Origin: Methylocystis sp.
GTDB taxonomy: Bacteria > Pseudomonadota > Alphaproteobacteria > Rhizobiales > Beijerinckiaceae
Length of the DNA stretch: 64,000 nt
NCBI GenBank assembly: GCA_022843525.1
Contig: JALHNR010000001.1
Location: 1-64,000, forward strand
Direction: 5' to 3'
The notes below the pieces were generated by a model. It saw only the letters and a program-made list of their open reading frames with translations. It made no database searches and had not been told where the DNA came from. Position numbers and translations under genes: made by a program. Positions 5,805 to 53,104 of this stretch are shown in pieces. Each line of letters opens with the position of its first letter. Position 1 is the first letter of the stretch.

Positions 5805-5994
5805 TTACTTAATAACGCTGATGCGCACAAGTAACCAGTAGGCGCCTAAACCGGCGATCATCGCCGAACACGCATTGACAAGACGCGGACTACGTCTCCC
5901 TTGGTGAAGGTCTTGTCGACGACTATGAGCAAGGGCAGCACAACAAGCACGATGCCGATCTGTCCAACTTCGACGCCGATATCGAAGCTTGCCT
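5805..5994 (-). pseudogene. HupE/UreJ-family nickel permease relic
   Basis: Reading minus-strand DNA gives SFDIGVEVGQIGIVLVVLPL, matching the conserved FN-GVELGQ helix of HupE/UreJ proteins, then after a change of frame VNACSAMIAGLGAYWLLVR, the usual last membrane helix, and a stop at 5805. The N-terminal two thirds are missing and an in-frame stop precedes the fragment. HupE/UreJ proteins transport nickel or cobalt for hydrogenase or urease, and the relic lies directly upstream of nikR, which supports an original nickel-uptake unit. Confidence 0.6.
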
Positions 5995-6111
5995 ACGCGG
6001 GAACGATCGCGCGCCGTGGCGCTCGAAGTTCAATAAGGCCACGCGCGAAGCCAAACCGCGGATGAAGCGTAAGCGTGGTCAGAAGCGGCGGGATCCGTTG
6101 GAGAGATTTGG

Positions 6112-17646: not shown

Positions 17647-17942
17647 AATCCTCCCCCGCGAAACTGTTCTTGGATCGGCGCTTCTTGCCGAATGGCTACA
17701 ACTACTGTCGCAGTTTTCCTGGTCAATTTTCTCGCAAAGATTCGCTTTCCGACGTGAAAAGTCGGTGCCCCTGCGGTCAGCCAGGCGCCGCCACGATCCG
17801 TTCCCGGCTGGCTGTTTCTGAGGTTCTTCGCCCAAGGCGGAACGAAAAACCGTGAAATGCGTTGTCTTGACTGCGATGCGGCGAAGGCTTGGGTTCGATG
17901 TGAAAGCCCTGTGGGCGGGCCGCCCAGTTTAGTCCCGAAGCC

Positions 17943-29400: not shown

Positions 29401-31881
29401 GTGAGCCGCCCCGTGAACCGCCGTCTTCTGACCTCTACCTCTCGTTTCGTCCTTATAGTCAGTTTGGCGTCGTTCGCGGGCGATGCCCTTGCTCAGACGG
29501 CATTGCCGACAATCAATGTTGGCGGACACGCGGCGAAGCGGACGACGCATAGGCAGGCGGCGCGTCCGCAAGGCCCTGCGCGGCCAACCACGCTTGTCGA
29601 AGTCGCGCCGGGGCCTTCGTCAGAGCAGGATACCGCGCTCGGGCCGAAGATCGATTATCCGACGGGTCCGAAGGAAATGAATTCGTCGAGCGAAAGGTTT
29701 TTTACTGGCGGACAGGTCAACGCCATCCCCTTCTATCGTCCTGGAGAGGCGCTCGAAGTCGTGCCGGGTCTGGCCGTGACCCAGCACAGCGGCGAGGGCA
29801 AGGCCAACCAATATTTTCTACGCGGCTTTGATCTCGATCACGGTACCGATCTCGCGCTTTATCTCGACGGCATGCCCATCAACATGCGCACCCATGGCCA
29901 TGGCCAAGGCTGGGCCGATGCGAATTTCATTATGCCCGAATTGCTCGCGTCGGTGGATGCCCGGAAGGGTCCCTATAACGTCGAGGATGGCGACTTTTCG
30001 AACGCCGGCACAATCCGCATGCAGTATTTGAATAGGGCGCCTCAAGGCGTTTTCACGACGAGCGCCGGCGAATTCGGTTTCGCGCGCCAGTTCGGCATGA
30101 AGTCATGGGCTTTCATGGGCGGCGACATTCTCGGAGCCGCAGAGGCGTCCGTTTATGATGGCCCCTGGGTCGTTCCAAACAGAGCGCGCAAGGTCAACGC
30201 GGTGTTGCGCTGGATTCGCGGCGCCGAGGCCGACGGCGTCGGCATTACCGGCATGGCCTATGCCAATCGGTGGAACTCGACCGACCAGATTCCCTTGCGC
30301 GCCGTTGAGCAAGGACTGATGTCTCGTTGGGGGACGATGAACCCGACGGATGGCGGCGACGCGACGCGGTTCAGCATATCCGGCCACTGGAGCCAGCTCA
30401 GCGAAACGAACTATTCTCGAATCGAGGGTTACGCTGTTCATTCGACGTTGGATTTGTTCAGCGACTTCTCCTATTTTCTGAGTCATCCCGTTCTTGGCGA
30501 CCAATTCCGTCAGTTCGATCGAAGAACGATCCTGGGTTCGAACGGCATTCACGGCATTAAGTTCAACGTGGCGGAAACGCCCTTCGAATTGCGCTTCGGC
30601 TACCAGACGCGCTGGGACGACATCCGGGTAGGATTACAGGACACTTACATCCGTAGGCCTTACGATACCGTGCGCAACGATCGCGTGGGCGAGGCGAATT
30701 TTAGCTTATTCAGCGACATAAAAACCAAATGGACTCCCTGGCTGACGACCGTCGTCGGCACGCGCTGGGATTATTATTGGGCGAGCGTCGGCGGCATTCA
30801 GACCTACTTAGCGTCACCCATCGTTGGTTTCGTCGGTGACAATCCGGCTCAACCGGTCCGCCTATGGACCGCCCCGTTTAACAACGGGGCGAGCACTGGA
30901 CAACTGCTCAGCCCCAAGGCGTCGGTGATCATCAATCCGTTCGACGACAAGACTGATTTCTATCTCAACTTTGGGCGCGGCTTCCATTCGACGGACGCGC
31001 GCGGCACGACGCAGACGTTTTCAACAACCGAAGCGTCGGACGATCTCGGCTATGTGTTCGCGCAACGTCGACCCCTGCTTTCGCCGTCAACGGGCGCTGA
31101 AGTCGGCATGAAGACCAGAGCGATCGATAATCTGGAGTCAGCGCTGACGCTCTTCTGGATCCAGCTTCAGTCGGAAAACGTCTTTGCTGGCGACGAAGGC
31201 AATACAGTATTTGGCCCTCCGAGTCGCCGCATCGGGTTTGAATTCACGAACCATTATCGGCCGGTTTCTTGGTTGAGTTTCGAAGGCGACCTGACCATGA
31301 CAGATGCGCGTTTCCTTGGTTTCGATAAGGATCAGGCAGACCTCTACCTTCAGCTGCTACAGCCTGACGCGCTGCCCTGGGGAACGTTTCTTGGAAACAA
31401 GCCCGGGAATTTTCTGATCAACGCCGCGCCTATTATTGCGACCGCGGTTCTGGAACTGGGCGAACCGACAGGCTGGTTTGGCGCGCTGAAATATCGGTAT
31501 ATCGGCCCGCGGGCTTTGACCCAGGACGGCTTCTTCAAAAGCCCCGCGATCGGCACGGTGAATGCGCGCATAGGTTATCGCTGGAAGGAGGGTTGGAAAT
31601 TCCAGCTCGACGTCTTCAACATGCTCAACTCGCGTTCGATGTCGATCGCTTATGGATATGGCTCATTGATTGGAACGGACCTGCTCTACCAAGCCTGCAA
31701 CGGCCTCATAGCCGTGCCGGTGACGGGCGCCAACTGCGGCGTTGGCCGGATGGATATTCACGCGCATCCGATTGAGCCGCCGGCCTGGCGCCTCACTTTC
31801 GGCGGACCGATTGAATTTGATCCGTCCGTCAAGGGCCCCGACCTGATGGAGCCTTTCAATCTCGTAAAATTCTGGGAATGA
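29401..31881 (+). CDS. TonB-dependent outer-membrane receptor
   Basis: The 826-residue protein (GTG start at 29401, or GTG at 29413) has a signal peptide ending ALAQ, a plug domain (FYRPGEALEVVPGLAVTQHS, then QYFLRGFDLDHGTDLALYLD) and a long beta-barrel ending in a C-terminal WRLTFGGPIEFD region. A His/Gly motif MRTHGHGQGWADANFI in the plug region could contact metal. These proteins import metal chelates or other ligands using TonB energy. It sits between the NikR-like regulator and a copper efflux operon, so a metal chelate substrate is a fair inference. The barrel C-terminus ends VKFWE, close to the usual aromatic end. Confidence 0.85.
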   Translation: MSRPVNRRLLTSTSRFVLIVSLASFAGDALAQTALPTINVGGHAAKRTTHRQAARPQGPARPTTLVEVAPGPSSEQDTALGPKIDYPTGPKEMNSSSERFFTGGQVNAIPFYRPGEALEVVPGLAVTQHSGEGKANQYFLRGFDLDHGTDLALYLDGMPINMRTHGHGQGWADANFIMPELLASVDARKGPYNVEDGDFSNAGTIRMQYLNRAPQGVFTTSAGEFGFARQFGMKSWAFMGGDILGAAEASVYDGPWVVPNRARKVNAVLRWIRGAEADGVGITGMAYANRWNSTDQIPLRAVEQGLMSRWGTMNPTDGGDATRFSISGHWSQLSETNYSRIEGYAVHSTLDLFSDFSYFLSHPVLGDQFRQFDRRTILGSNGIHGIKFNVAETPFELRFGYQTRWDDIRVGLQDTYIRRPYDTVRNDRVGEANFSLFSDIKTKWTPWLTTVVGTRWDYYWASVGGIQTYLASPIVGFVGDNPAQPVRLWTAPFNNGASTGQLLSPKASVIINPFDDKTDFYLNFGRGFHSTDARGTTQTFSTTEASDDLGYVFAQRRPLLSPSTGAEVGMKTRAIDNLESALTLFWIQLQSENVFAGDEGNTVFGPPSRRIGFEFTNHYRPVSWLSFEGDLTMTDARFLGFDKDQADLYLQLLQPDALPWGTFLGNKPGNFLINAAPIIATAVLELGEPTGWFGALKYRYIGPRALTQDGFFKSPAIGTVNARIGYRWKEGWKFQLDVFNMLNSRSMSIAYGYGSLIGTDLLYQACNGLIAVPVTGANCGVGRMDIHAHPIEPPAWRLTFGGPIEFDPSVKGPDLMEPFNLVKFWE

Positions 31882-32051
31882 GTGTCGTTGCCTCATCGCG
31901 CGCTATCGGAGCCTGCGCGTGCCGATCGCGCGGACCTTTGAAGGGCGTTCCGAGGCGACGCGCTGACTGGGAACAGGTTGATTTGATAACTCCAGCGCTT
32001 ATTGTGTTGTCTCCGCAGGACCTGCAGCCATCTCCCAGGACCGAATGTTTG

Positions 32052-33440
32052 ATGCTCAGCAAACGACCGCGCGACCTCATCCTGAGGGCATGCTTGAGCA
32101 TGGCGACAGCCTTGGGGCTTAGCGGCTGTGCTCTCACGCCCCCTGGCACGACGGACGAGCAAGCCAAGCTGAGCGAAGTTTCCGAGCACTTCGAGCCGCC
32201 GATTGAGGCTCGGGAGTTGCCGGCTTTGCCTGCGGTTGCCAACTGGCGCGACGTCCTGCACAGGGCGTTCCTGGCCAACGGCGAATTGGAATCGGCCTAT
32301 TTCGAGTGGAAGGCGGCTTTGGCCCGGGTCGACCGGGACGCGACCTGGCCCAACACCAATTTGATGTTCGGCTACCGCTATCTGTTTTCGCGTGACCAGA
32401 TGAAGACATGGGACCGCATGACGCTCAGCGGCTCCTTCATGCCGTCCACGACCCTGCAGTTGCCGATCAAAACGTGGACCGCTGGAAAAGTAGCGCTGGA
32501 GGCGGCCAGAGCGGCCAGCGAGAGATTTCGAACCGTCAAGTTCGAGCTTCAGCGGAAGGTTCTCACCGCTTATTTGGATTTGGCGCTGGCCAGGGAAAAA
32601 GTCCGCATCGAGCGCGACAACGTAAATCTTCTCAAGCTCTTGACGAGCTCGGCCGCCGCTCGGAGCCAAGCTGGCGCTCCCCTGCAAGACATGCTGAAGG
32701 CCCAGACCAACTGGGAGCTGGCGAAGAACAACCTGCTGAACCTGGAAGCCGAGGTCCGCTCGGCGCGCAGCAAGCTCAACGGTCTTCTTGCTCGCGACGC
32801 CGAGGAGCCGCTGAACCTTCCGCCGACTTTGCCCGCCGCGCGTCCCGTGATCGGTAATGATGCTCGCCTCATAGAGGTCGCCGTCGACCAAAACCCGGAA
32901 TTGGCCGCTCTCGCCCGCCAAGTGGCCGGACGCAAGGACGCCATAGATCTCGCCAGGCTGGAATTTCTGCCGGATTTCGTGCCATCCGGGAGCATCACCG
33001 GCAACATTGAAAGAACTGCCGAAATGTTTGTGATGGTGCCGACGAGGATCCCGGCGATTCTCGCGATGATCCGGGACACGGAGGCGATGGCGCGGTCATC
33101 GGAAGCAGTCCTGCGGCAAACTGAGAGGGACCGCGCTGCGACCTTCGTCGCCAACCTTTACTTCATGCGCAACGCAGAGCGACAAACGAGTTTTTACCGG
33201 CGGCGGCTGGTCCCTGTCGTCGAGCAACTGATCAACAGTTCGCGCGAAGCTTACGCAGCGGGAAGCGTGCAGTTCGCGGATCTCATCGACAGCCAGCGGA
33301 CTTATATTTCAGTGCGAGTCTTGGTCGCCGAAGCCAGGATCGAGCGAGAAAAGCGGCTGGCGGAACTCGAAGCTCTTGCGGGCGTGGACATAGAAACGCT
33401 CGGTCGGCCAGAGATGGCGCCGCCGGAGCCGCCAGAATAA
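32052..33440 (+). CDS. TolC-type outer-membrane lipoprotein (CusC-like)
   Basis: From ATG 32052 the protein has 462 residues, beginning with a lipoprotein signal (ATALGLSGC) so it is anchored by Cys. It has two TolC-type repeats (AFLANGELESAYFEWKAALA at the start; YAAGSVQFADLIDSQRTYIS near the end). It would form the outer-membrane exit of the Cus-type pump. It is the first gene of the copper/silver efflux operon. An open frame extends upstream to 31878 and overlaps the TonB receptor, but no signal peptide results from that start. Confidence 0.82.
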   Translation: MLSKRPRDLILRACLSMATALGLSGCALTPPGTTDEQAKLSEVSEHFEPPIEARELPALPAVANWRDVLHRAFLANGELESAYFEWKAALARVDRDATWPNTNLMFGYRYLFSRDQMKTWDRMTLSGSFMPSTTLQLPIKTWTAGKVALEAARAASERFRTVKFELQRKVLTAYLDLALAREKVRIERDNVNLLKLLTSSAAARSQAGAPLQDMLKAQTNWELAKNNLLNLEAEVRSARSKLNGLLARDAEEPLNLPPTLPAARPVIGNDARLIEVAVDQNPELAALARQVAGRKDAIDLARLEFLPDFVPSGSITGNIERTAEMFVMVPTRIPAILAMIRDTEAMARSSEAVLRQTERDRAATFVANLYFMRNAERQTSFYRRRLVPVVEQLINSSREAYAAGSVQFADLIDSQRTYISVRVLVAEARIEREKRLAELEALAGVDIETLGRPEMAPPEPPE

Positions 33441-33486
33441 GCCTCTCGGCAATAACCTGGACTGCAATAGGCCGGAGCGGCGACAC

Positions 33487-34779
33487 ATGACCACAATGGG
33501 GATACGCATGCCGGCAAAGCGACGCGGAAGTTTGAGCGGGCTGGCGCTCGCGACGCTGTTGGCTTCCAGCGTCGCTTACAGAGTTAGCGGGCAAGAAACT
33601 GGGGCGCCGGACAACACCATGTCCCAGATGAAAATGCCGACATCGAAGGATGCGTCCAAGGTTGGCGCGCTGCCGCCGGGCTATGCGGAAGTCAGCATTG
33701 CTGCAGATGTTCAGCAGCGCATCGGGGTCACGCTGGGAACCGTGCGCCGGACGCCGTTGACAATGACGATACGCACTGTCGGGATCGTGCGCCCGGATGA
33801 AACCAAACTCGCGCACATTCACCTGAAAACGGAAGGATGGGTCGAGAAGTTGTTTATTACCTTCACCGGACAGAAAGTGAAAGCTGGCGAACCGATGCTC
33901 TCGATTTACAGCCCCGCCTTCTACGCGGCGCAACGGGAGTTCTTGGTGGCGCTGCAGTATAGCAGGTCCGCGCCCTCGTCGGGTCAGCAAAACGTGGTCG
34001 ACACTGCCCGCCAACGGTTGGCGCTATGGGACGTTCCAAAGAATACGATCCAGGCGCTGGAGAAGACCGGGAAGCCGAGCAAATCACTTATCATGCGCAG
34101 CCCGATTTCGGGGACGATTTTGGAAAAGAAGACGTTCGAAGGCCAATACGTCGCACCCCAAGGCGAATTATATGTGGTCGGCGACCTTTCGACAGTGTGG
34201 GTGCAGGGCAAGGTCTTCGCGTATGAATTGCCGCATATTGCGCTCGGAATGCCGGCGACGGTCACATTTCCGTCGTTGGCGACGCGAAATTTCATCGGCA
34301 AAATTGTGTTTATCGATCCGGTCGTCGACGAGATGACCCGATCGGTGCAAGTTCGCGTGGAAGTGCCCAATCCCAATGGACTGATCAAGCCCGGCATGTT
34401 TGCTCATGTCTTGATCAGCCACGTCATGGGTAGTGGTTTGACCGTTCCAACATCCGCCGTCATCCGCACCGGCGAGCGCAACATAGCCTTTCGCGCCGTC
34501 TCCGCCGATCGCTTCGTGCCGGTGCAGGTCGAGATCAGTCCCTTGCGGTTCGACGATCGATTTCAGATTCTCGGGGGGCTCAAAGCCGGGGACGAAGTGG
34601 TCACTTCCGCCAACTTCCTCATCGACTCGGAAAGCCGATTGCGCGCCGGCGGCGGCGGCATGGTCGGTATGCCCGGGATGGGTGTTGACGAAAAAGGCGC
34701 CGGCGAAAAGCCCCCGAAGCAAAAGGACACGAAGGGCGCGCCGGAAGAGGACGCCGATCACTCCAAGATGCGGCACTGA
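33487..34779 (+). CDS. cusB: CusB-type periplasmic adaptor
   Basis: The 430-residue adaptor has a signal/anchor at about 15-35, a Met-rich segment (NTMSQMKMP) near the mature N-terminus that is typical for copper(I)/silver binding in CusB, and HlyD-type domains (GWVEKLFITFTGQKVKAGEP, then RSPISGTILEKKTFEGQYV). The C-terminus carries another Met/His tail (MVGMPGMGVDEK to DHSKMRH). It bridges the pump and the lipoprotein channel. The gene should be directly followed by cusA, but an IS481 element interrupts the junction 40 bases after its stop. Confidence 0.88.
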   Translation: MTTMGIRMPAKRRGSLSGLALATLLASSVAYRVSGQETGAPDNTMSQMKMPTSKDASKVGALPPGYAEVSIAADVQQRIGVTLGTVRRTPLTMTIRTVGIVRPDETKLAHIHLKTEGWVEKLFITFTGQKVKAGEPMLSIYSPAFYAAQREFLVALQYSRSAPSSGQQNVVDTARQRLALWDVPKNTIQALEKTGKPSKSLIMRSPISGTILEKKTFEGQYVAPQGELYVVGDLSTVWVQGKVFAYELPHIALGMPATVTFPSLATRNFIGKIVFIDPVVDEMTRSVQVRVEVPNPNGLIKPGMFAHVLISHVMGSGLTVPTSAVIRTGERNIAFRAVSADRFVPVQVEISPLRFDDRFQILGGLKAGDEVVTSANFLIDSESRLRAGGGGMVGMPGMGVDEKGAGEKPPKQKDTKGAPEEDADHSKMRH

Positions 34780-34819
34780 CGTGGCCTCCCGATTCCACCG
34801 ACGCGCCTCAAAGGCTAGG

Positions 34820-35836
34820 TGTTTGATCCCGGGATTTGATGGTGCAATCTTTTCCATGGAGTGGAAGGATGCGCTATGGGCCAGATTCTGCACGGGAGCG
34901 CCCGCACGACAGAGGCGGTGCGTCGAGCGATACAGCATAGTCAAGAGAGCCTGAGGGCTCTGGCCAAGCGATATGGCGTCAATCAGAAGACCGTCGCCAA
35001 ATGGAAGAAGCGCTCTTCGGTTTCCGATGGGCGCACCGGGCCGAAAGATCCACATTCCACGGTTCTGACAATCGAAGAGGAAGCGATCGTCGTCGCCTTC
35101 CGAAAGCACACGCTGCTGCCGCTCGACGATTGTCTCTACGCCTTGCAGGCGACGATCCCGCATTTGACGCGTTCATCGCTGCACCGCTGCCTGCAAAGGC
35201 ACGGGATCAGCCGGCTGCCGGACGTTGAAGGCGACAAGCCCGCGAAGAAGACGTTTAAATCCTATCCGATTGGCTTCTTTCACATCGACATCGCCGAAGT
35301 GCAGACGGCGCAAGGAAAGCTCTATCTTTTCGTCGCCATAGACCGCACGTCGAAGTTCGCCTTTGCAAAGTTGTTCGACAAGGCGAACATGGCGATGGCG
35401 ACCGCCTTTCTCGAAGCGCTTATTGCCGCCGTTCCTTACGTCATCCACACGGTTCTGACCGATAACGGCATTCAGTTCGCCGATCTGCCGAAAAACCGTA
35501 ATGGTCCAACCGCCATGCTGCGGGGCCATCCGTTCGACCGCTCCTGTCGGCGACACGACATTGAGCATCGCCTCACAAAGCCAAATCACCCATGGACCAA
35601 TGGCCAGGTCGAGCGCATGAACCGGACGATCAAGGATGCCACCGTCAAGCGATACCACTATGACGATCACAACCAATTGCGACGGCATCTCGCCGACTTC
35701 ATCGACGCCTACAATTTCGGCCGGCGGCTCAAGACCCTCAAAGGTCTCACGCCTTACGAGTTCATCTGCAAATGCTGGACTTCCCAGCCCGAACGATTCA
35801 AACTCAACCCGCTCCAGAAAATGCCGGGACTAAACA
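34820..35836 (+). mobile_element. IS481-family element with 6-bp target duplication
   Basis: A 1017-bp element begins TGTTTGATCCCGGGATTT and ends with the inverted form (AAATGCCGGGACTAAACA). Both sides carry GCTAGG (34814-34819 and 35837-35842), a direct target duplication. It sits between cusB and cusA, immediately before the cusA start codon. Confidence 0.88.
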
Positions 35837-35841
35837 GCTAG
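34876..35841 (+). CDS. IS481-family transposase
   Basis: From ATG 34876 the product has 321 residues: an N-terminal HTH (AVRRAIQHSQESLRALAKRY), then an integrase core with catalytic residues visible in FHIDIAEV (D), LTDNGIQF (D) and NGQVERMNRTIK (E). It ends in KMPGLNS. The reading frame is intact, so the element may still move. The stop codon TAG is supplied by the target duplication (GCTAGG) and not by the element itself. Confidence 0.88.
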   Translation: MGQILHGSARTTEAVRRAIQHSQESLRALAKRYGVNQKTVAKWKKRSSVSDGRTGPKDPHSTVLTIEEEAIVVAFRKHTLLPLDDCLYALQATIPHLTRSSLHRCLQRHGISRLPDVEGDKPAKKTFKSYPIGFFHIDIAEVQTAQGKLYLFVAIDRTSKFAFAKLFDKANMAMATAFLEALIAAVPYVIHTVLTDNGIQFADLPKNRNGPTAMLRGHPFDRSCRRHDIEHRLTKPNHPWTNGQVERMNRTIKDATVKRYHYDDHNQLRRHLADFIDAYNFGRRLKTLKGLTPYEFICKCWTSQPERFKLNPLQKMPGLNS

Positions 35842-35844
35842 GCC

Positions 35845-38800
35845 ATGATCGCCCGCATCATCGAATTCAGCGCTCGCAACGCTTTCCTTGTCCTCTTGCT
35901 GGTCGTCGCCATCCTTGGGGGCGGGTTATGGGCTGTCCTCAAAACGCCCCTTGATGCGCTTCCGGATCTGTCGGACGTGCAGGTGATCGTTTCCACCCAA
36001 TGGGAAGACCGCAGCCCCAATATCATTGAAGACCAAATCACCTATCCGATCGTCACGCAGCTTCTCTCCACTTCCCATGTCAAAGCGGTTCGGGCCAGCA
36101 GCTTCTATGGCGAGTCCCTGGTTTATGTGATCTTCGAAGATGGTACGGATCTCTATTGGGCGCGCACCAGGGTTTTGGAATATCTCAGCGGCATGGCCGG
36201 CAAGCTGCCGCCGGGCGTTTCACCCAAGCTCGGACCGGACGCGACCGGCGTTGGATGGGCGTTTGAATACGCCCTGATCGATAAGACAGGCAAACACTCG
36301 TTGGCCGATCTTCGGACGTTGCAGGATTGGCAGGTCCAATACCAAATTCGAGCCGTTCCGGGTGTAGCGGAAGTGGCCGCCGTCGGCGGCCTCGTGAAGC
36401 AATATCAGGTCACGATCGATCCGGACAAGCTGCTGGCGTACAGGATACCGATCAATAAGGTGGTTGAACAAGTTCGCCGAAGCAATCAAGAGGTCGGCGG
36501 GCGGGTATTGGAGTTCACGGGCAAAGAATACATGGTGCGCGGCAGAGGCTATATTCAGAAGCCCGCCGACATTGAGAACGTGGCGGTGGGGGCGCAGTCT
36601 GACGGGACGCCCATTCTCGTGCGGGACGTAGGGTTCGTCCAGATCGGCCCGGACATCCGCCGGGGAGTGGCGGACCTCAATGGCATGGGCGATGTCGCTG
36701 GCGGCATTGTCGTGGTCCGCTATGGCGTTAGCGTCTATGACGTGTTGAACCGCGTCAAAGAAGTGATCAAGGACACGGTCCAACCATCCTTGCCTGAAGG
36801 CGTGGAGCTGGTCGTCACCTATGACCGCTCCGAGCTTATCAAGCACTCGGTGGAGACGCTGCGCGAGAAGCTCATCGAGGAGGGCATCATCGTCAGCCTG
36901 GTCTGCCTGGTGTTCTTGTTCCACCTCCGCAGCGCCCTTGTCGCGATCATTACGCTCCCCCTGGCGGTCCTGATGGCGTTGGTGGCGATGCAATGGATCG
37001 GGCTCACGAGCAACATCATGAGCTTGGGCGGCATCGCCATCGCCATCGGGGCGATGGTGGATGCTGCCATCGTAATGATCGAGAACGCCCACAAACACAT
37101 CGAGCGTGAGCAGGCAAAGCCTCCCGAAGAGCGTCGCCCGCGGCTCGAAGTCGTGATCGAAGCCGGCAGGGAGGTGGGGCCGTCGCTATTCTTCTCGCTT
37201 TTGATTATCACCGTAAGTTTCCTGCCGGTTTTTGCCCTTCAGGACCAGGAGGGGCGGTTATTCAAGCCGCTCGCCTACACCAAGTCGTTCAGCATGTTCT
37301 TTGCGGCGATCCTGTCGATCACCGTCACGCCGTTCCTTATGGTGCTGCTGATCCGCGGCAAGCTTCCACCTGAAGAAGCAAATCCGATCAACCGCTTCTT
37401 GATTTGGATCTATCAGCCGGTCGCCAAGCTAGCGTTGAAATTCCGTTACGCGATGGTCATCGTGGCGCTACTCGCTATTGCCGCGATCGTGCCGATCTAC
37501 GCCAGTCTGGGCAGCGAATTCATGCCGCCGCTGTGGGAGGAATCGATCCTTTTCATGCCTGCGACGCTGCCGGGGTCGTCGATCCAGACGATGAAGCAGA
37601 CCATCCAGGAGCAGGATAAGATTTTGATGGACTTCCCAGAAGTCGCCACCGTCTTCGCCAAGGCCGGGCGGGCCAATAGCGCCACCGACCCCGCGCCGCT
37701 CGAAATGGTCGAGACAGTTATCTCCCTCAAGCCCGAGGACCAGTGGCGCAAGGGCATGACCTCCGAGAAGCTCATCGGCGAAATGAACCAGGCGCTGAAA
37801 ACGAATATCCCGGGCTTCTCCAACAGTTGGACCATGCCGATCAAAGCGCGCATCGACATGCTCTCCACCGGCATTCGGACTCCCATCGGGGTGAAAGTGT
37901 TTGGGCCGGACCTTGCGGAAATAGGGCGGATACTCACGCAAGTTGAAGCCGCCGTGAGCTCGGTCCCGGGCACGCGAAGCGCCTTCGCCGAACGCGTGAG
38001 CCAAGGCTATTACCTGGACTTCGACATCGATCGTGCGGCCATCGCCCGCTATGGGCTATCGGTGATGGACGTGCAGGACGTCATCGTGGCGGCGGTGGGC
38101 GGCGCCAATCTCACGCAAACGATCGAGGGCCGCCAGCGCTTCCCAGTGAACGTCCGCTATGGGCGCGAATTACGCGACGATCTTGGCAAGTTGCGACGGG
38201 TGCTGGTCGCCACGCCGACGGGGACTCAAGTGCCCTTAGAAGAATTGGCTGAACTGCGTTTCGTGGATGGCCCGACCTTGATTAAGAGCGAAGCGGCGCA
38301 GCTTGTCGGCTACGTCTATGTGGATGTGGCGGGTCGGGACACCGGCGGCTACATGGATGACGCCCGAAAGGCGGTCGCCGAGATGGTTAAGCTGCCTCCG
38401 GGCTACAGGCTGGAATGGAGCGGCTCGTTCGAAGGAATGCAGCGGGCGGGGCGGATGCTGAAATATGTCATCCCGATTACGCTGGCCCTCATCGCCGTGC
38501 TGCTCTACCTGAACGCTCGGTCGCTGCCTAAAGTGCTCATCGTGCTGACTGCTGTCCCTTTTTCCTTAGTCGGCGCGTTTCTGCTGTTGTGGCTGTTGGG
38601 CTATCATCTCAGCGTGGCGGTTTGGGTGGGGATCATCGCCCTGGCCGGTGTGGACGCCGAAACCGGCATGGTGATGCTTCTGTATTTGGATGTGGCCTTT
38701 GAACGCTGGAAGCGGGAGGGCCGAATGAACAGCATCGGCGAACTGGAAGGCGCTGTGATGGAAGGCGCCGTTCAGCGCGTTCGGCCGAAAATGATGACGG

Positions 38801-38997
38801 TTCTCGCGATCCTGATGGGGCTCCTGCCCATCATGTGGGGCAGCGGGACGGGGTCTGACGTGATGAAGCGGATCGCCGCCCCGATGGTGGGCGGGGTCGT
38901 CACGAGTTTTATCCTAGAGCTGTTGATCTATCCGGCCATCTATGTCCTTTGGAAATGGTGGAGCGACGTGCGGCACGCGCATGCAGCCGTTAAGTGA
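35845..38997 (+). CDS. cusA: CusA-type copper/silver RND efflux permease
   Basis: The 1050-residue inner-membrane pump starts MIARIIEFSARNAFLV and has the CusA hallmark GGIAIAIGAMVDAAIVMIEN, with D406 and E413 in the membrane proton path and only one Asp (unlike the CzcA at 7515). The periplasmic part contains the Met of DMLSTGIRTPIGVKVFG, matching a copper-relay Met in CusA proteins. It should export Cu(I)/Ag(I) with the CusB and CusC-like products. An IS481 insertion now lies two bases before its ATG, separating it from its former ribosome-binding sequence (AAAGG); expression may depend on the IS. Confidence 0.92.
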   Translation: MIARIIEFSARNAFLVLLLVVAILGGGLWAVLKTPLDALPDLSDVQVIVSTQWEDRSPNIIEDQITYPIVTQLLSTSHVKAVRASSFYGESLVYVIFEDGTDLYWARTRVLEYLSGMAGKLPPGVSPKLGPDATGVGWAFEYALIDKTGKHSLADLRTLQDWQVQYQIRAVPGVAEVAAVGGLVKQYQVTIDPDKLLAYRIPINKVVEQVRRSNQEVGGRVLEFTGKEYMVRGRGYIQKPADIENVAVGAQSDGTPILVRDVGFVQIGPDIRRGVADLNGMGDVAGGIVVVRYGVSVYDVLNRVKEVIKDTVQPSLPEGVELVVTYDRSELIKHSVETLREKLIEEGIIVSLVCLVFLFHLRSALVAIITLPLAVLMALVAMQWIGLTSNIMSLGGIAIAIGAMVDAAIVMIENAHKHIEREQAKPPEERRPRLEVVIEAGREVGPSLFFSLLIITVSFLPVFALQDQEGRLFKPLAYTKSFSMFFAAILSITVTPFLMVLLIRGKLPPEEANPINRFLIWIYQPVAKLALKFRYAMVIVALLAIAAIVPIYASLGSEFMPPLWEESILFMPATLPGSSIQTMKQTIQEQDKILMDFPEVATVFAKAGRANSATDPAPLEMVETVISLKPEDQWRKGMTSEKLIGEMNQALKTNIPGFSNSWTMPIKARIDMLSTGIRTPIGVKVFGPDLAEIGRILTQVEAAVSSVPGTRSAFAERVSQGYYLDFDIDRAAIARYGLSVMDVQDVIVAAVGGANLTQTIEGRQRFPVNVRYGRELRDDLGKLRRVLVATPTGTQVPLEELAELRFVDGPTLIKSEAAQLVGYVYVDVAGRDTGGYMDDARKAVAEMVKLPPGYRLEWSGSFEGMQRAGRMLKYVIPITLALIAVLLYLNARSLPKVLIVLTAVPFSLVGAFLLLWLLGYHLSVAVWVGIIALAGVDAETGMVMLLYLDVAFERWKREGRMNSIGELEGAVMEGAVQRVRPKMMTVLAILMGLLPIMWGSGTGSDVMKRIAAPMVGGVVTSFILELLIYPAIYVLWKWWSDVRHAHAAVK

Positions 38998-39686: not shown

Positions 39687-40532
39687 TCATCCGTTGTTCA
39701 GCGCTTCGGCGCCGGTAATGAGGTCGATGAGCTCGGTAGTGATCTCCGATTGGCGGGCCTGATTAGCCTCTTGGCGCAACTCCTCGAGCTTCTTCGACAC
39801 ATTGTCATAGGCGGATTCCATGGCGGCGAAGCGCGCGGCGTTCTCGCTTGCGATCGATTCAACCGCCGCCTCGGTCAGGAGCGCGAAGACATATTCCGCC
39901 ATCAACTTTTCATGAAGGGGTATCGGCTGCAGGTTATGAAGTGGCGGCTGGCGTGGTTGTTTGGCCGAAAGCATGGCGAGATCGAGCGGCAGCAGCAAGC
40001 GCCGCTCGATCGTGGGCGAGCCGCCCTGACGGTAACGGTAGAACATCACCTCGACGCGGCCGACGCCGCCATGGGCAATCCCGTGATAGAGCGCGTCCAT
40101 GAGCCGACGGATCGTTTCCGGCGCCCCGGCGCCTCGGCTCGCCATTGGATGCGTCCAGACAGGCGGCTGCAAGCGTTCGAGCGCCAGCGCCGCGCCCCGG
40201 CTGCCGATTACGAACAAGGCGTCACCCGGATCGAGATTTGCCTTGGCGTCCCCGATCAGACGTTCATTGAAGCCGCCAACGAAGCCATGTTCGGCAGTGC
40301 AAAGTACGAGCGCGCGCCTGCCCTCCGCAGCCTTCGCCGGCTCCGGCTCGGCCATGAGGAGCAGCGTGCTGGCGAGCCCAGCCGCGACCGCCTCCGTATA
40401 GCGACGAACCCCGGGGAGCGCGCGCTGCGCCTCCTGCAGGCGCAAGCCAGCAAGTGAGCGCATGGCGCCGACGATGTCGCGAAGCTCGCCCATGCCGCCG
40501 ATATGCGACTGGATCTCGACAAGCCGCGTCAT
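39687..40532 (-). CDS. atpG: N-ATPase subunit gamma
   Basis: The 281-residue central-stalk subunit has the N-terminal coiled coil (VEIQSHIGGMGELRDIVGAM), a Rossmann-like middle (ALVLCTAEHGFVGGFNERLI) and the C-terminal coiled coil (ASENAARFAAMESAYDNVSK then LEELRQEANQARQSEITTEL). It differs from standard gamma in its short N-terminus, typical of N-ATPases. It is the last gene of the operon, its start overlapping atpA by four bases. It turns inside the alpha/beta ring and transmits rotation to the c ring. Confidence 0.92.
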   Translation of the reverse strand: MTRLVEIQSHIGGMGELRDIVGAMRSLAGLRLQEAQRALPGVRRYTEAVAAGLASTLLLMAEPEPAKAAEGRRALVLCTAEHGFVGGFNERLIGDAKANLDPGDALFVIGSRGAALALERLQPPVWTHPMASRGAGAPETIRRLMDALYHGIAHGGVGRVEVMFYRYRQGGSPTIERRLLLPLDLAMLSAKQPRQPPLHNLQPIPLHEKLMAEYVFALLTEAAVESIASENAARFAAMESAYDNVSKKLEELRQEANQARQSEITTELIDLITGAEALNNG

Positions 40533-42061
40533 AGCGGATCGCCTGTTGCTCCGAGCGAACCGGCCAGCGCTTCAAGCGACGCTTTGAGGCGTGTGCGGAG
40601 TTCGTCCCGCAGCGCCTCTGTTCGATCGTCAAGCGCGGCGATCTCGGGGCAACGTTCCATCAACCAACGTCCAAGCTTCGCTCGGAACACTGCCACTCGA
40701 TCGAGCGACACGCCATCGAGCACGCCTTCGCTCAGCGCCAACAGTAACGCCACCTGCTCGCCGAGCGGCAGCGGCGCAAATTGTTGTTGGCTGAGTACGG
40801 CGCGGATGCGCCTGCCGTGCTCGATTACTTTGCGCGTGCGTTCATCGAGCATGCCGCCGAAACGGGTGAACATTTCGAGTTCGAGAAATTGGGCGTATTC
40901 CAGCCGCAAACTCTCGGAAAGCGTTTTGAGTGTCGCGGCCTGCGTTTTGCCGCCAACGCGCGATACGCTCTTGCCGACGTCGACCGCTGGCTTTTGATCT
41001 TCGTGAAAGAGGCGCGGGTCGAGATAGATTTGGCCGTCGGTTATCGAAATCAGATTGGTCGGAATATAGGCGCTTATGTTGCCGGCCTGAGTCTCGGCTA
41101 TCGGCAGCGCCGTCAGCGATCCGCCGCCGAGCTCGGGCGCAAGTTTCGCGGCTCGCTCGAGCAAGCGCGAATGGATGTAGAAAATGTCTCCCGGATAGGC
41201 CTCGCGTCCTGGCGGCCGGCGCAGCAGCAGAGAGACCTGACGATAGACCGCCGCATGTTTGGTGAGATCGTCGATCACCAACAGCACGTCGCGGCCGCGC
41301 GACATGAAATATTCGGCCATGGCGCAGGCCGCATAGGGGGTCAACCATTGCAGGCCCGGCGCCGCGTCGGCTGCTCCGATAACGAAAAGACAATGTTCCG
41401 GCGCGCCGTACCGGCGCACCGATTCGATCACCTGCGCGACCGACGAGGCCTTTTGGCCGACCGCGGCGTAAACGCATATCACGTCGCTGGAACGCTGATT
41501 GATGATCGTGTCGACGGCGATGGCGGTCTTCCCCGTCGCTCGGTCGCCGATAATCAGTTCGCGCTGCCCGCGACCGAGCGGGATCATCGCGTCCACCACC
41601 AGAAGCCCCGTCGCCAGCGGTCGCGTGACGAGCGCGCGATCGACGATCGCAGGCGCGGGCTGGTCCATCGGCGCGAAGGCATCGGCTGCGACCGGACCGC
41701 CGCCGTCCAGTGGCGCGCCGAGCGCGTCGACGACGCGGCCGAGCAGCGCTTCGCCGACGGGGACGCGCGCCACCTCGCCCGTCCCGCGCACGACGCTTCC
41801 AGCGGAAATTCCGCTGGCGTCGCCCAGCAGCATGCATCCGATCATGTGCTCGCCGAGATCGACCGCTAGGCCGCGAACGCCGCCTTCGAACACGAGCAGC
41901 TCGTCGAGCCTCGCTTCGGGTAGTCCAGAGACCATCGCCACACCATCGCCGACTTGCGCGACCCGACCAATCCATTCGATTTGCGGTTCGAGCGCTAATT
42001 CGCCGATGGAGCCACGGGCTCGATCAATCGAATTGCGCAGATCTTCAGCAAGCGTCGCCAT
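40529..42061 (-). CDS. atpA: N-ATPase subunit alpha
   Basis: From ATG 42061 the product has 510 residues. It has the N-terminal beta-barrel (EWIGRVAQVGDGVAMVSGLP), Walker A GDRATGKT (172-179), Walker B region LLVIDDLTKHA and the conserved PGREAYPGDIFYIHSRLLER and ALPIAETQAGNISAYIPTN. The alpha subunits hold the non-catalytic nucleotide sites of F1. The ATG overlaps the atpF stop by one base. A longer frame upstream overlaps atpF and should be disregarded. Confidence 0.94.
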   Translation of the reverse strand: MATLAEDLRNSIDRARGSIGELALEPQIEWIGRVAQVGDGVAMVSGLPEARLDELLVFEGGVRGLAVDLGEHMIGCMLLGDASGISAGSVVRGTGEVARVPVGEALLGRVVDALGAPLDGGGPVAADAFAPMDQPAPAIVDRALVTRPLATGLLVVDAMIPLGRGQRELIIGDRATGKTAIAVDTIINQRSSDVICVYAAVGQKASSVAQVIESVRRYGAPEHCLFVIGAADAAPGLQWLTPYAACAMAEYFMSRGRDVLLVIDDLTKHAAVYRQVSLLLRRPPGREAYPGDIFYIHSRLLERAAKLAPELGGGSLTALPIAETQAGNISAYIPTNLISITDGQIYLDPRLFHEDQKPAVDVGKSVSRVGGKTQAATLKTLSESLRLEYAQFLELEMFTRFGGMLDERTRKVIEHGRRIRAVLSQQQFAPLPLGEQVALLLALSEGVLDGVSLDRVAVFRAKLGRWLMERCPEIAALDDRTEALRDELRTRLKASLEALAGSLGATGDPL

Positions 42062-42801
42062 TAAGCCCTGATCTCCGACCGCGCGGTCGCGAGCGCGCTC
42101 CGCCACGAAAAGCTCAAATTGGCGTTCGGCAAGCGCAGCTCCGCCCCAGCAACGAGGTTGGGGTCGACGATGAAGGTGATATCCACCGCATCGCCGAACC
42201 GTCGACGGAGACGGGCGCGCCACGTTTCGGCCGTTTCCGACTCGAGCGCCGAAGCCGTGGCCACGGTGAGGCCCGCGCTATCCCCGAACTGACGAACGAG
42301 GCCTTCCATCTCGGCTTTCGAAAGCCCTTCGAGATATTCGTCGATCTGTTCGAGCCATGCCTCCGACTGCAACTTCGTCGGCGCATCGGCGAGGAGCCGA
42401 AGCGCGATATCGGCGCCGAGATCGAGCGCCAAGTTTCGCGCCTCGGCGAGGGCCGTGTCTCGCTCCGTGGCCAGCGTCTTGCGCGCCGCATCTAGGAGCG
42501 TCGCGACTTCGACTTCGGCCTGAGCGCGCCGCGCTTGCGCCGCCTCCTCCGCTTGCGCCGCCGCAGTCTGGAGCGTGGCCTCGCGCTCTTTGGCGATGTC
42601 CTTGAATTCGGCCTCGATGGAGGCGAGTTGGTCTTTCGCCTTGTCTTCGGCCGCGCGGGCCTCGGCGTATTGCTTTTCGATCTCTGCGTGGCGCGCATCA
42701 AGCATGCGTAGCACCGGTTCGTATAGGAAACGGCGCATGAGCCAGACGAGGATGCCGAAATTGACCGTCTGGAGCCCGAGCGTCCACCAATCGAATTGCA
42801 T
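42061..42801 (-). CDS. atpF: N-ATPase subunit b with delta-like C-terminus
   Basis: The 246-residue protein starts FDWWTLGLQTVNFGILVWLM, a membrane anchor, followed by a long Ala/Glu/Arg-rich coiled coil (about 35-150) and a C-terminal region (GDAVDITFIVDPNLVAGAEL) that resembles the end of the delta/OSCP subunit. N-ATPase operons lack a separate delta gene, and b of about 250 residues takes over that role. It forms the peripheral stalk. Its start lies 3 bases beyond the atpE stop. Confidence 0.92.
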   Translation of the reverse strand: MQFDWWTLGLQTVNFGILVWLMRRFLYEPVLRMLDARHAEIEKQYAEARAAEDKAKDQLASIEAEFKDIAKEREATLQTAAAQAEEAAQARRAQAEVEVATLLDAARKTLATERDTALAEARNLALDLGADIALRLLADAPTKLQSEAWLEQIDEYLEGLSKAEMEGLVRQFGDSAGLTVATASALESETAETWRARLRRRFGDAVDITFIVDPNLVAGAELRLPNANLSFSWRSALATARSEIRA

Positions 42802-42803
42802 TG

Positions 42804-43046
42804 TCAGCCCGTATATGGGTTGGCGAATAGCAACAGAAGCGCCACCACCAAGCAATAGATCGCCATGGTTTCGATCATGGCGAGCCCAACAAAAAGCGTG
42901 CGCGAAATGGCGCCGGCCGCCTCTGGCTGACGGGCGATCGCGTCCATGGCGGCGGCTACCGAGCGTCCTTCTGCAATCGCCGGCCCGATGGAGCCAAAGG
43001 AGACGGCGATGACTGCGCCGATGATGCTGATCAGCTTCAAGTCCAT
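42804..43046 (-). CDS. atpE: N-ATPase subunit c (Na+-type motif)
   Basis: This 80-residue protein forms two membrane helices joined by the polar loop ARQPEA. The second helix has the ion-binding E59 followed by T60 and Y64 ([14 protein letters not shown]), and the first has E26 (PAIAEGR) where sodium-type c subunits have Gln. The E + ET(S) arrangement is the pattern described for N-ATPases and points to sodium. Ten or more copies would make the rotor ring. It sits between atpB and atpF. Confidence 0.94.
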
Positions 43047-43055: not shown

Positions 43056-44576
43056 TTAGCCCGCTTCGACAGTGCCGATGGCGGCGCCTATGAAAACGGT
43101 TGCAAGCACGGTGAAGATGTAAGCCTGGACGATACCGACTAGAATCTCAAGGGCCATGAGCGGAATCGGGACGAAGAGCCCGGAGAGCGCCACAACGAGA
43201 GCGATGACGAACTCGCCGCTCATGACATTGCCGAAGAGGCGGATCATGAGCGAAAAGGTCCGTGTCAGTTGCGACACGATGTTGAGCGGCAGCATGATCA
43301 GCCGCGGCTTGGCGAAACTGGCGAGGTAGCCGAGAAGACCCTGCGCGCGCACGCCGAAATAATGCACCGATGCGAACACAACGAGCGCCAGCGCCGCGGG
43401 AGTCTCGAGCTTACTGGTCGGCGCTTCGGTGCCCGGCAGCACGCCGGAGAGATTGGCCGCGACGAGAAAGGTGAAAAGCGTGCCGAGCAATGGCAGATAA
43501 GGCCGCGGGTCGGTACGGATGACTTCCTCGATCTGCTCCATGACGCCGGTCACGAGAACCTCGACAATTGTTCCCGATCGATCCCTCCGCTGTCGCAGTC
43601 GGCGCGTCATCAGCCAGGCGCAGATCGTCAAGGCGAGCATGATCGCCCAGGTGGTCACGACGGCCCGCGTGATAGTGGCGGGACCGATCCGGAACAACAC
43701 GGCGCTCGCCAGGGGCGAAGGCCGCTCCAAGCGGTCCGGGGGCGCTTTCGCTGCAGGCGCAGCCGGGGCCGCCGGAGCCGCAGGGGGCGGAGCAGGGGCG
43801 TTCTCCGCGATGGCCCTGTTCACTTCATCGAGCGCTTCTCGCGCCGAGGCGAGCTGGGGGTCGAGTTTCAACGCCGCTTCGAGATCTTGTCTCGCGCGAT
43901 CGAGATCCTGTTTACTTTGAAAAACCTTGGCCCGATCAAGGAAAGCGACGGCGAACTTGGGATCAAGGGTTATGGCCTCGCTGAAATCGGCAAGCGCCTT
44001 GTCGAGATCGCCCTTGGCGGAAAAGGTCAGGCCGCGACCGTCGTAGGCGCTCGCTAGCCCGGGATCGCGTTTGATCGCCTGGTCGTAATCCGCGATCGCG
44101 TGATCGAGATCGCCCTTGGCGAGATACGCTCTGGCGCGGCCGCTGTATGCCGTCGTCAAATTCTTGTCGAGCTGCAGCGCTCTGGCGTAATCTGCAATGG
44201 CAGGGTCGAGATCGCCTTTCGCGAGATGGATCGACGCGCGCTCCGCAAGGATGAAAGCCGACTTCGGGTCGAGTTGCGCCGCCTTGTCGAGATCGGCGAT
44301 GGCGCGCGCGAAGTCGCCTTTCGCTCGATAAGCGCCGCTCCGATTGACATAGGCGATGATCTGATTGCGCTTCGCTTCTCGATTCCCGCGAGCGATGATT
44401 TCGGCACAGCCGGCGATCCGCGCATCGGTGTCGGCGCCGCGACATCTGGTCCAAGGGCCGCTCGCGGCCAACGTTGTCGCGCCCGTCGCGACGCACAGGG
44501 ACGCCGCGAGCGCCAGGCGAACGAAAGGCGATTTCACGGATTTGACGAGAGAGGAAATGATCGAACGGCGCGCCAT
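43056..44576 (-). CDS. atpB: N-ATPase subunit a fused to an N-terminal TPR domain
   Basis: From ATG 44576 the product has 506 residues, against about 230 for a normal N-ATPase a subunit. Residues 15-40 are a signal/anchor, then PWTRCRGADTDARIAGCAEI and five 34-residue TPR repeats (about 70-245, e.g. AKGDLDHAIADYDQAIKRDP), a Pro/Ala linker (about 260-280) and the complete subunit a (285-506) with the essential arginine R446 in SLMIRLFGN and terminal helices. The whole runs in one frame. Signal and topology place the TPR in the periplasm. A GTG at 44702 could extend the N-terminus but gives no better signal peptide. The a subunit provides the ion half-channels at the c ring. Confidence 0.92.
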   Translation of the reverse strand: MARRSIISSLVKSVKSPFVRLALAASLCVATGATTLAASGPWTRCRGADTDARIAGCAEIIARGNREAKRNQIIAYVNRSGAYRAKGDFARAIADLDKAAQLDPKSAFILAERASIHLAKGDLDPAIADYARALQLDKNLTTAYSGRARAYLAKGDLDHAIADYDQAIKRDPGLASAYDGRGLTFSAKGDLDKALADFSEAITLDPKFAVAFLDRAKVFQSKQDLDRARQDLEAALKLDPQLASAREALDEVNRAIAENAPAPPPAAPAAPAAPAAKAPPDRLERPSPLASAVLFRIGPATITRAVVTTWAIMLALTICAWLMTRRLRQRRDRSGTIVEVLVTGVMEQIEEVIRTDPRPYLPLLGTLFTFLVAANLSGVLPGTEAPTSKLETPAALALVVFASVHYFGVRAQGLLGYLASFAKPRLIMLPLNIVSQLTRTFSLMIRLFGNVMSGEFVIALVVALSGLFVPIPLMALEILVGIVQAYIFTVLATVFIGAAIGTVEAG

Positions 44577-44729: not shown

Positions 44730-45008
44730 CTACTTCGCCGAATGCAGGGCGACCCCACGCGCCGCGAGGAAACCAAGAAACATGCTCAACAGTGGAATCG
44801 CGCCGAGCTGCGCGGAAAGCCCCAAGAGGATTATCGCCGCCCCATAGCGACCTAATGTGAAGGCCAAGAGAAACATCCAACGGTTCCCCGCGGCTATCCC
44901 CACTGCGGTTCGACGCAAGGCGGCAAAATAGACGCGCCCAAAGACGAATCCGGCGCACGCCATCGCCAAAGCGAGCCCGGCGATCGAAGGGAAGGCGTCA
45001 TGGGTCAT
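44730..45008 (-). CDS. atpR: N-ATPase accessory protein AtpR
   Basis: From ATG 45008 the product has 92 residues and three hydrophobic helices (FPSIAGLALAMACAGFVFGR, FLLAFTLGRYGAAIILLGLS, IPLLSMFLGFLAARGVAL). This is the size and place of AtpR in atpDCQRBEFAG operons; it is thought to help c-ring assembly by contacting charged membrane residues of subunit c. Its start overlaps the atpQ stop (ATGA). Confidence 0.88.
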   Translation of the reverse strand: MTHDAFPSIAGLALAMACAGFVFGRVYFAALRRTAVGIAAGNRWMFLLAFTLGRYGAAIILLGLSAQLGAIPLLSMFLGFLAARGVALHSAK

Positions 45009-45285
45009 TCGCGGTAAATTCTCTTCCAGGCAAGGGTGCAGCCGAGCGCCAGGCCGGCCACGAGCAGTCCCAAGGTCCAGAATATTCCCGAGGCGAACCG
45101 GTGGTCGAGCCAGCGCCCGGCGAAAACGCCGAGCAGAGTCGGCGCAACGATCGTCCAACCGAGCACGCCGATCATCGCCAAGTTCAGGCCAAGCGGCCGT
45201 TCACCCTCCTGCCGCCAGCGCGCGCGCCGTTCGCGCCGCCTCTTGACGGCTTCATGGAGGCGCTCGTGGTTTTCTGGCTGCTGGA

Positions 45286-45289
<4 letters not shown>
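45005..45289 (-). CDS. atpQ: N-ATPase accessory protein AtpQ (AtpI-like)
   Basis: From ATG 45289 the product has 94 residues: a basic cytoplasmic start (AVKRRRERRARWRQEGERPL) and two membrane helices (LAMIGVLGWTIVAPTLLG and FWTLGLLVAGLALGCTLAW). This is the AtpQ/AtpI-type protein of N-ATPase operons, which may assist magnesium uptake or rotor assembly. It overlaps atpC by four bases. A relic of a second copy lies at 63135-63338. Confidence 0.88.
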
Positions 45290-47270
<1,981 letters not shown>

Positions 47271-52177: not shown

Positions 52178-53104
52178 CTGACTCGAAATGATCCTGTTTG
52201 CTGTCAAGTCCTTGCGATGCGTCGCGTGAGAGTGCGGACATGTGCGACGAGGACCCATGCGACCGCGCTGGCGATTGTGGCCTCGAAGTCCTTGGCGAGG
52301 CGGCGGCAGCGACCGAGCCAAGCGAAAGTCCTTTCGACGACCCAGCGGCGCGGTAGGATTTCGAATCGCTTTGCTGCATCCGAGCGCTTGATGATTTCCA
52401 GCATCCACGATCCTTTGCCCTTGAGCGCGGCGCGTAGCTTGTCGCCGGCATAGCCGCCGTCGGCGAAGACATGACGCAACCAAGGATAAAGCGCGCGGAT
52501 CGAAGAGAGAACGCGCGGCGCGCCGTCGCGGTCCTGGATGTCGGCTTCATGCACCACGAGACCAACGAGGTTTCCTTGCGTGTCGGTGACGATATGGCGC
52601 TTGCGTCCCTTGATCTTTTTGCCCGCGTCGAACCCGCGAGGCCCGCCGCTTTCCGTGGTCTTTGCCGACTGGCTGTCGATGACGCCAGCGGTCGGGCTCG
52701 CCTCGCGTCCCTCTTTCTCGCGCGCCGCCATGACCAAGGCGTGATTGATGCTCGCAAACACGCCCGCGCGCGACCACGCGTAGAAATAGCCCTGCACGGT
52801 CGAGTAAGGCGGAAACTCTTTCGGCAATTGCCGCCACTGGCAGCCCGTAGAGGCCATATAGAGGATCGCGTTCACGACGGATCGCAAGTTGGTTTCGCGC
52901 GGACGGCCTAGCGGCGACGCCGGCGGCAAAAGCGGCTCGATCAGCGCCCATTCAGCGTCCATCAAATGACTTGCGTAACGCAGTCCGTCACGCCGATACT
53001 TGCGCCGGGTGATTTCAGTCCAGGCCATCGTGCTTCCCTCGAATCTCGCAAATCCGAAGGAATCACAACCTGCTGAAATCACTCAATAACATTTTCGGTC
53101 AGCC
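52178..53104 (-). mobile_element. IS5-family insertion sequence
   Basis: The ends carry related inverted sequences (CTGACTCGAAATG at the left; GGCTGACCGAAAATG at the right, read inward). TCTGA occurs on both outer sides (52173-52177 and 53105-53109) as a possible target duplication. It carries one intact transposase. A terminal fragment of a sister copy is at 50551-50690. Confidence 0.7.
52204..53028 (-). CDS. IS5-family transposase
   Basis: From ATG 53028 the product has 274 residues. It has the N-terminal DUF4096-like part (LMDAEWALIEPLLPP then GCQWRQLPKEFPPYSTVQGY) and a DDE core with Asp in TAGVIDSQSAKT, Asp in HVFADGGYAGD and Glu in RRWVVERTFAWLGR. The frame is intact, so the element could be active. 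Confidence 0.88.
   Translation of the reverse strand: MAWTEITRRKYRRDGLRYASHLMDAEWALIEPLLPPASPLGRPRETNLRSVVNAILYMASTGCQWRQLPKEFPPYSTVQGYFYAWSRAGVFASINHALVMAAREKEGREASPTAGVIDSQSAKTTESGGPRGFDAGKKIKGRKRHIVTDTQGNLVGLVVHEADIQDRDGAPRVLSSIRALYPWLRHVFADGGYAGDKLRAALKGKGSWMLEIIKRSDAAKRFEILPRRWVVERTFAWLGRCRRLAKDFEATIASAVAWVLVAHVRTLTRRIART

Follow-up and report, generated by a model that had tools for sequence, protein, structure and literature searches.

A portable TPR module fused to subunit a of an N-type ATPase in Methylocystis

The operon and its fused gene

The window analysed here is a stretch of 64,000 nucleotides from Methylocystis sp. (contig JALHNR010000001.1, positions 1 to 64,000). It contains a complete minus-strand run of genes for an N-type rotary ATPase, in the order beta (atpD, 45735..47174), epsilon (atpC, 45286..45738), AtpQ (ATPase_gene1, 45005..45289), AtpR (44730..45008), the fused subunit a (atpB, 43056..44576), c (atpE, 42804..43046), b with an OSCP-like C-terminal extension (atpF, 42061..42855), alpha (atpA, 40529..42223) and gamma (atpG, 39687..40532). 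Beta, epsilon and gamma were assigned from open reading frames and Pfam matches. AtpQ and AtpR were assigned by Pfam, with starts placed by analogy with the RefSeq annotation of plasmid pGW6_1, and for atpF and atpA the longest frame was taken. An earlier sequence-only reading had described a canonical atpDCQRBEFAG operon; all nine genes are indeed present in that order, and AtpR (PF12966) scores 31.3 bits against a cut-off of 26.

The single 264-residue AtpF frame combines PF00430 with a PF00213 tail, and the nine-frame run includes no separate delta gene. In these respects, as in the gene order and the presence of AtpR and AtpQ, the operon agrees with the N-ATPases described in PMC4154653. 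Subunit a falls inside the tree of N-ATPase a subunits and reaches model NF009955 (306.9 versus 302); against the altF1_A exception model, TIGR03306, it falls short, with 215.9 bits where 302.1 are required. The c subunit has, by eye, a carboxylate in each of its helices (GPAIAEG and MIETMAIY). Two carboxylates also occur in an N-type c-ring from another bacterium which, according to PMC5376962, was measured to be H+ specific; ion specificity cannot be deduced from sequence.

The atpB gene is one open frame of 506 codons from its ATG, without a break, and its assignment draws on the frame itself, Pfam, NCBIfam and a RefSeq counterpart. Residues 1-38 (44463..44576) resemble a signal peptide, with a basic start, a hydrophobic stretch and LAA before SGPW. 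These are followed by a tetratricopeptide repeat (TPR) module (residues ~41-259; 43800..44456), which consists of a cap with a C-x11-C pair, five TPRs and a C-terminal capping helix. A Pro/Ala-rich linker (residues ~260-285; 43722..43799) then passes into a stretch of the form SPL...F.IGP, with which unfused subunit-a homologues begin. Subunit a proper occupies residues ~286-506 (43059..43721), as delimited by Pfam and by comparison with unfused homologues.

Several Pfam TPR families match the N-terminal half (for example TPR_1 at 5.3e-32), and TPR proteins of known structure align to residues ~70-255. The subunit-a domain, ATP-synt_A (PF00119), covers residues 307-496 (1.1e-44; 153 bits versus a cut-off of 33.9). 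An AlphaFold2 model, built from a 19-row alignment, has five helix pairs at residues 69-238 together with capping helices, mostly at pLDDT 97-98, so that Pfam and the model both find the tandem 34-residue helix pairs of a TPR domain. From residue 267 to 291 the pLDDT is below 50, and the linker is predicted to be disordered. The subunit-a half is poorly modelled (block means of 39-72; pTM 0.49). The five repeats and the Pro/Ala linker noted in the sequence-only reading are thus both recovered, and R446 in SLMIRLFGN is found where it had been placed, as the conserved arginine of the ATP-synt_A domain. The proposed signal or anchor corresponds to a signal-like start at residues 1-38, read by eye.

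Compared with the subunit a of other N-ATPases, the protein is much longer (506 versus ~230 residues), since a signal-like segment and the TPR module stand in front. The closest counterparts of the module itself are TPR proteins that stand alone in these bacteria (for example a 331-residue frame, G000:C155), with which it shares the two-cysteine cap, an RI motif, the TPR array and a signal-like start. The stand-alone proteins stop soon after the repeats, whereas a fused module is followed by a Pro/Ala-rich linker and then by another protein. The repeats also align by sequence to consensus TPR designs (CTPR) and to the TPR domain of OGT (E 6.2e-41 to 8bu0). These domains belong to designed or cytoplasmic proteins and are not known to be exported or carried by a transporter.

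Independent copies

The fusion is real. Methylocystis sp. L43 and the complete Methylocystis rosea GW6 plasmid pGW6_1 carry the same region at ~99% DNA identity, and on pGW6_1 RefSeq lists a protein, likewise of 506 residues and beginning at the same place (WP_124740354.1), that is named "F0F1 ATP synthase subunit A". An assembly artefact can be rejected, as independent assemblies, one of them a complete plasmid, have the same fusion; a sequencing error removing the in-frame link, which the sequence-only reading had named as one possible refutation, is ruled out by these assemblies and the RefSeq protein. A chance open frame in GC-rich DNA is rejected as well. Long frames do precede unfused subunit-a genes (for example L118, L120 and L121), but there the ATG is at its usual place and no TPR family matches.

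The plasmid of M. rosea BRCS1 (NZ_CP044329.1) matches in four pieces, and its only listed counterpart is a TPR protein of 306 residues. Gamma is likewise listed as two pieces, and the incomplete gene table of this record has no entry for alpha, c, AtpR or subunit a. As deposited, the BRCS1 operon (2279-8325) looks broken in several genes, for which poor sequence quality is the likely reason.

Pieces of the window between 32736 and 52340 are ~98-99% identical in DNA to pGW6_1. CusCBA-like efflux genes (31878-38997) adjoin the N-ATPase operon, and because pieces of the block are shared with a plasmid typed as mobilizable, the efflux genes and the operon together are probably mobile. The pGW6_1 match lacks roughly 1 kb of the window, near 34820-35836. 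Two DDE transposase genes lie near the end of the shared block (52204-53082 and 56875-58215).

Distribution and ancestry of the subunit-a fusion

The sequence-only reading suggested a search for long, TPR-bearing AtpB proteins in N-ATPases. Such proteins exist, within a restricted range. At least 6 of 39 Methylocystis genomes carry the fusion, at seven loci of which two are in one genome (G031); this figure comes from the best matches listed, and the fusion counts are lower bounds. Besides the window and its near-copies in L43 and pGW6_1, divergent fusions occur in four more genomes from two genera. In a sample of 298 genomes of the family, in which five candidates per genome were scored at E 1e-60 or better and G026 was not drawn, at least six have the fusion, including one of another genus (G182). 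Outside the family, none of 24 sampled loci from the rest of the order (L144-L167) and none of 20 from the rest of the class is fused, the loci being taken from matches below 1e-45.

Subunit a was recognised in 42 of the best 80 of 84 loci from a collection of named genomes (the 42 lying among L037-L083), and is fused in three; the module is absent from the other 39. Since most N-ATPase a genes were read without it, the TPR module is not needed for the enzyme. One genome (G026) has both a fused and an unfused N-ATPase. An apparent extension in matches from Sphingobium and related plasmids (query from residue 214) was rejected: the one record checked, H3, has a normal subunit A with ATP synthase subunit I next to it.

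In a subunit-a tree of 83 rows, the seven fused rows (two of them identical) form one group with support of 43/30, and this group is joined by the unfused L040 with support of 98/89. A single change between fused and unfused states is found in 40% of 200 bootstrap trees. The unfused N-ATPases of other Methylocystis genomes are scattered over the tree. On this basis the fusion is likely to have arisen once. The divergent copies are 44-80% identical to each other over the TPR half and 73-96% over subunit a; for the window against these copies the values are 50-67% and 73-74%, and the number of TPR repeats differs between lineages.

Both halves of the fusion are under purifying selection, the TPR half under weaker constraint. 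For G031:C5 and G010, the divergent pair with the least saturation (dS 0.38 and 0.44), dN/dS is 0.32 over the TPR half and 0.05 over subunit a. The remaining divergent pairs for which the ratio is finite, several of which approach saturation, give 0.19-0.35 and 0.09-0.25, respectively. Among the near-copies (window, G016 and G019), the TPR values of 0.16-0.63 come from very few changes and selection cannot be read from them.

Homologous modules on other transporters

What is new goes beyond one ATPase: the module is portable, and the subunit-a fusion is one case among many transporters. Searches with the whole protein and with its TPR half, followed by Pfam and, for some, NCBIfam scans, gave 24 listed frames in three genera in which a homologous cap and TPR module continues in frame through a linker into another protein, generally a membrane protein (two frames are near-identical, one is cut by a contig end and one has no N-terminal part). 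Partner domains were scanned in all except five divergent subunit-a frames.

Six of the 24 frames have subunit a as the partner, the two near-identical ones among them. P-type ATPases account for nine: three of MgtA type (one NCBIfam-scanned, and above the TIGR01524 cut-off), two of Ca type (one, L184, cut by the contig end; the best NCBIfam models are Ca-ATPases, below their cut-offs), two for Cu (L170 above the TIGR01511 cut-off; the G027 frame has no signal-like start) and two for Cd/Zn (L176 above the TIGR01512 cut-off). Another Cu-type frame by similarity, L183, is cut by a contig end, has no Pfam pump domain and was left out of the count. Two Kef/YbaL-like antiporters score above PF00999 and PF02254, L172 being below the YbaL cut-off, and one further frame matches the antiporter family PF16980 (CitMHS_2), which we take to be NhaD-like. 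The remaining partners are a cytochrome b561 with a molybdopterin domain (one frame) and cupredoxins (five frames).

Four modules are found on pGW6_1, in front of subunit a, a Cd/Zn-type ATPase, MgtA and a cupredoxin. The RefSeq annotation of this plasmid names the Cd/Zn-type and cupredoxin fusions "tetratricopeptide repeat protein" and sets the beginning of MgtA behind the TPR, so that annotation does not accept every fusion. Other genomes have yielded a single fusion in E-value-limited searches (for example G000, which is fragmented, G007 and G010). PmoA (AMO family, PF02461) is above cut-off in all 12 of the 17 carrier genomes in which it was scored, from three genera, and in none of 14 controls; the carriers are therefore probably methanotrophs.

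One fusion preserves a trace of a possible origin. In the Ca-type ATPase of G024 (L169, 405-4172, minus strand), 46 residues between the helix and the pump are cupredoxin-like (54% identity, E 3.5e-16); they score 127, and none of 500 shuffles scored above 39. Because this piece is kept behind the shared helix, the donor of at least this fusion was probably a TPR-helix-cupredoxin gene.

In a first TPR tree of 37 rows, the N-ATPase modules lie in separate places, the alignment being spoilt by differences in repeat number. With the cap and the first and last repeats only (23 rows; nine rows, two of them N-ATPase, were dropped by the last-repeat pattern, and five stand-alone proteins were left out beforehand), a model with all N-ATPase modules in one clade is not rejected (p-AU 0.073), and a swapping of modules between pumps is thus unsupported.

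Some further arrangements were seen. Kef-type and NhaD-like (CitMHS_2) frames stand in tandem at L172 2432-7389, with almost identical TPR modules. At L182 3727-6531 (minus strand; G002:C2), the TPR module, cytochrome b561 and the molybdopterin oxidoreductase domain form a single frame. TPR proteins lie in tandem at L193 3303-8564, two of them with a stretch after the repeats that looks caspase-like by eye. A TPR frame at L205 2152-3129 (G688) groups with the Cd/Zn-type modules and ends just past its repeats.

Location of the module

The N terminus of P-type ATPases is cytoplasmic and that of subunit a is periplasmic; for Kef, NhaD and b561 proteins its placement is less certain. A module exported to the periplasm would thus have to be joined in different ways to different partners. 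A hydropathy scan (19-residue Kyte-Doolittle window at 1.6) predicts a helix between the TPR and the partner domain in 10 of 10 P-type ATPase and b561 fusions. In the subunit-a, Kef and NhaD-like fusions no extra helix is found (0 of 9), the first helix there being the partner's own; for G026 and G031:C2 the scan missed subunit a's first helix. A helix likewise follows the TPR in the five cupredoxin fusions, which do not count among the 10.

This pattern is as required for a periplasmic TPR. The C-x11-C pair in the cap would also suit an exported domain; the rows were picked by that pattern, and L190 is off-pattern with 12 residues between its cysteines. Altogether, the module is probably periplasmic, in agreement with what the sequence-only reading had supposed.

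A second kind of arm

A parallel plan is found on cation pumps of the same genus. In the window itself, 14686-17835 (minus strand) encodes a P1B-type ATPase, taken to be of Cd/Zn type because it resembles the TPR fusions; at its C terminus a helix has been added, followed by a Pro-rich linker and an OmpA domain. Comparable OmpA ends occur in the genus on four other cation P-type ATPases (L217, L219, L220 and L221), on another P1B ATPase (L226) and on FeoB (L223); in L216, the seventh frame scanned for such ends, no Pfam family matched. OmpA-like domains, as in OmpA and Pal, bind peptidoglycan. The OmpA arm has another fold than the TPR arm and sits at the other, C-terminal, end of the pump. 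That a Cd/Zn-type pump bears the TPR in two relatives and OmpA here is the best hint, by analogy, that the TPR is a docking or anchoring arm.

Possible functions and alternatives

The reading that we prefer, and to which we give an even chance, is that the gene encodes a single protein: subunit a, part of the stator in this N-type rotary ATPase, bearing an exported five-repeat TPR arm that binds a partner in the envelope. The signal-like segment would direct the TPR to the periplasm. Because the N terminus of subunit a lies outside, the linker could join directly to its first helix; for partners with an inside N terminus, the added membrane helix would span the gap. The TPR superhelix would then bind a putative periplasmic or envelope partner, and this binding might hold the pump at a chosen site or allow exported ions to be passed to the next component. 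The arm would be a counterpart of the OmpA-type, probably wall-binding C-terminal arm on other pumps of the genus. Docking to a partner, or anchoring, is, with moderate confidence, the most likely function of the TPR.

Two alternatives concern what the ATPase gene itself makes and does. The sequence-only reading had suggested that the TPR could regulate ion access to the half-channel. A module would probably sit close to the periplasmic mouth of subunit a, where it might gate or feed the half-channel of the ATPase specifically; as a general role this is unsupported, because homologous modules are also carried by P-type ATPases, antiporters and a cupredoxin, all of which lack such a channel. 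The linker is moreover predicted to be disordered, and we consider such a role very unlikely. Hardly more can be said for a pair of products, with the TPR protein secreted and subunit a started on its own, which we regard as the least probable of the readings. Unfused homologues have an ATG, GTG or TTG right before the SPL...F.IGP stretch (19 of 20 in the class sample), and the fused genes retain this stretch. Start codons lie near it in the window, G016 and G019 (TTG four codons before and GTG six codons after the first residue of SPL), which makes a minor separate subunit a conceivable in these copies, while in G182 there is a GTG 18 codons upstream; RefSeq also places the start of MgtA after its TPR. 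Against this, no stop codon separates the halves in the eight fused copies read, and RefSeq gives a single 506-residue protein on pGW6_1. In four divergent copies, which represent three independent sequences since G026 and G031:C2 hardly differ, the 19 codons to each side of the ancestral start of subunit a include no start codon; the nearest are 72 (G031:C5), 45 (G010), 21 (G031:C2) and 21 (G026) codons upstream and 20, 20, 26 and 26 codons downstream, respectively.

Other alternatives concern the module wherever it occurs. The TPR modules might bind each other, so that tagged pumps would cluster in a common patch without any outside partner. Genomes with several modules, such as the four on M. 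rosea pGW6_1, would fit this, but in some genomes (G000, G007 and G010) a single fusion was found, with the proviso that G000 is fragmented and the searches were limited by E-value; clustering seems unlikely, if worth keeping in mind. It is less probable still that the TPR is a passenger of little function, the captured 5' end of a TPR-helix-cupredoxin gene having served as a new expression signal. The cupredoxin-like piece in the Ca-type fusion of G024 speaks for such a capture, as does the gap of ~150 bases between atpR and the fused gene, in a run whose genes mostly overlap or almost abut. The purifying selection on the TPR, seen for the subunit-a fusions, and the recurrence of the module on many partners in three genera argue against a mere passenger.

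The preferred docking arm can be extended, more tentatively and at somewhat less than even chance, to the pumps of methanotrophic Beijerinckiaceae at large. Exchangeable periplasmic arms, TPR at the N terminus or OmpA at the C terminus, would act as address labels that fix cation pumps at envelope sites, and new pumps would join by fusion. The sites might be the wall, outer-membrane efflux partners, or the plasma membrane rather than the internal membranes in which methane is oxidised. Added helices, together with flexible linkers, would connect the arms to inner-membrane pumps of unrelated kinds, the rotary ATPase included.

Significance

No paper was found in the open-licence literature, judged partly from listings, on an N-ATPase AtpB with TPR, on an ATP synthase subunit a with an N-terminal TPR fusion, on a Methylocystis N-ATPase or on a fusion of TPR with a P-type ATPase, and none in that literature on a P-type ATPase with a C-terminal OmpA fusion in methanotrophs. 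The sequence-only reading knew of no described F-type ATPase with a TPR fusion, and this holds within that literature. Automatic annotation can mask such fusions, either through a general label ("F0F1 ATP synthase subunit A", "tetratricopeptide repeat protein") or through a start set after the TPR.

Rotary ATPases belong to the most highly conserved machines known, and the open-licence literature searched offered no description of a stator subunit that bears an exported docking arm. Together, the fusions suggest that in this group of bacteria ion pumps from many families are tagged with shared periplasmic modules. This opens a testable question, namely how inner-membrane transporters are positioned in cells that are rich in internal membranes.
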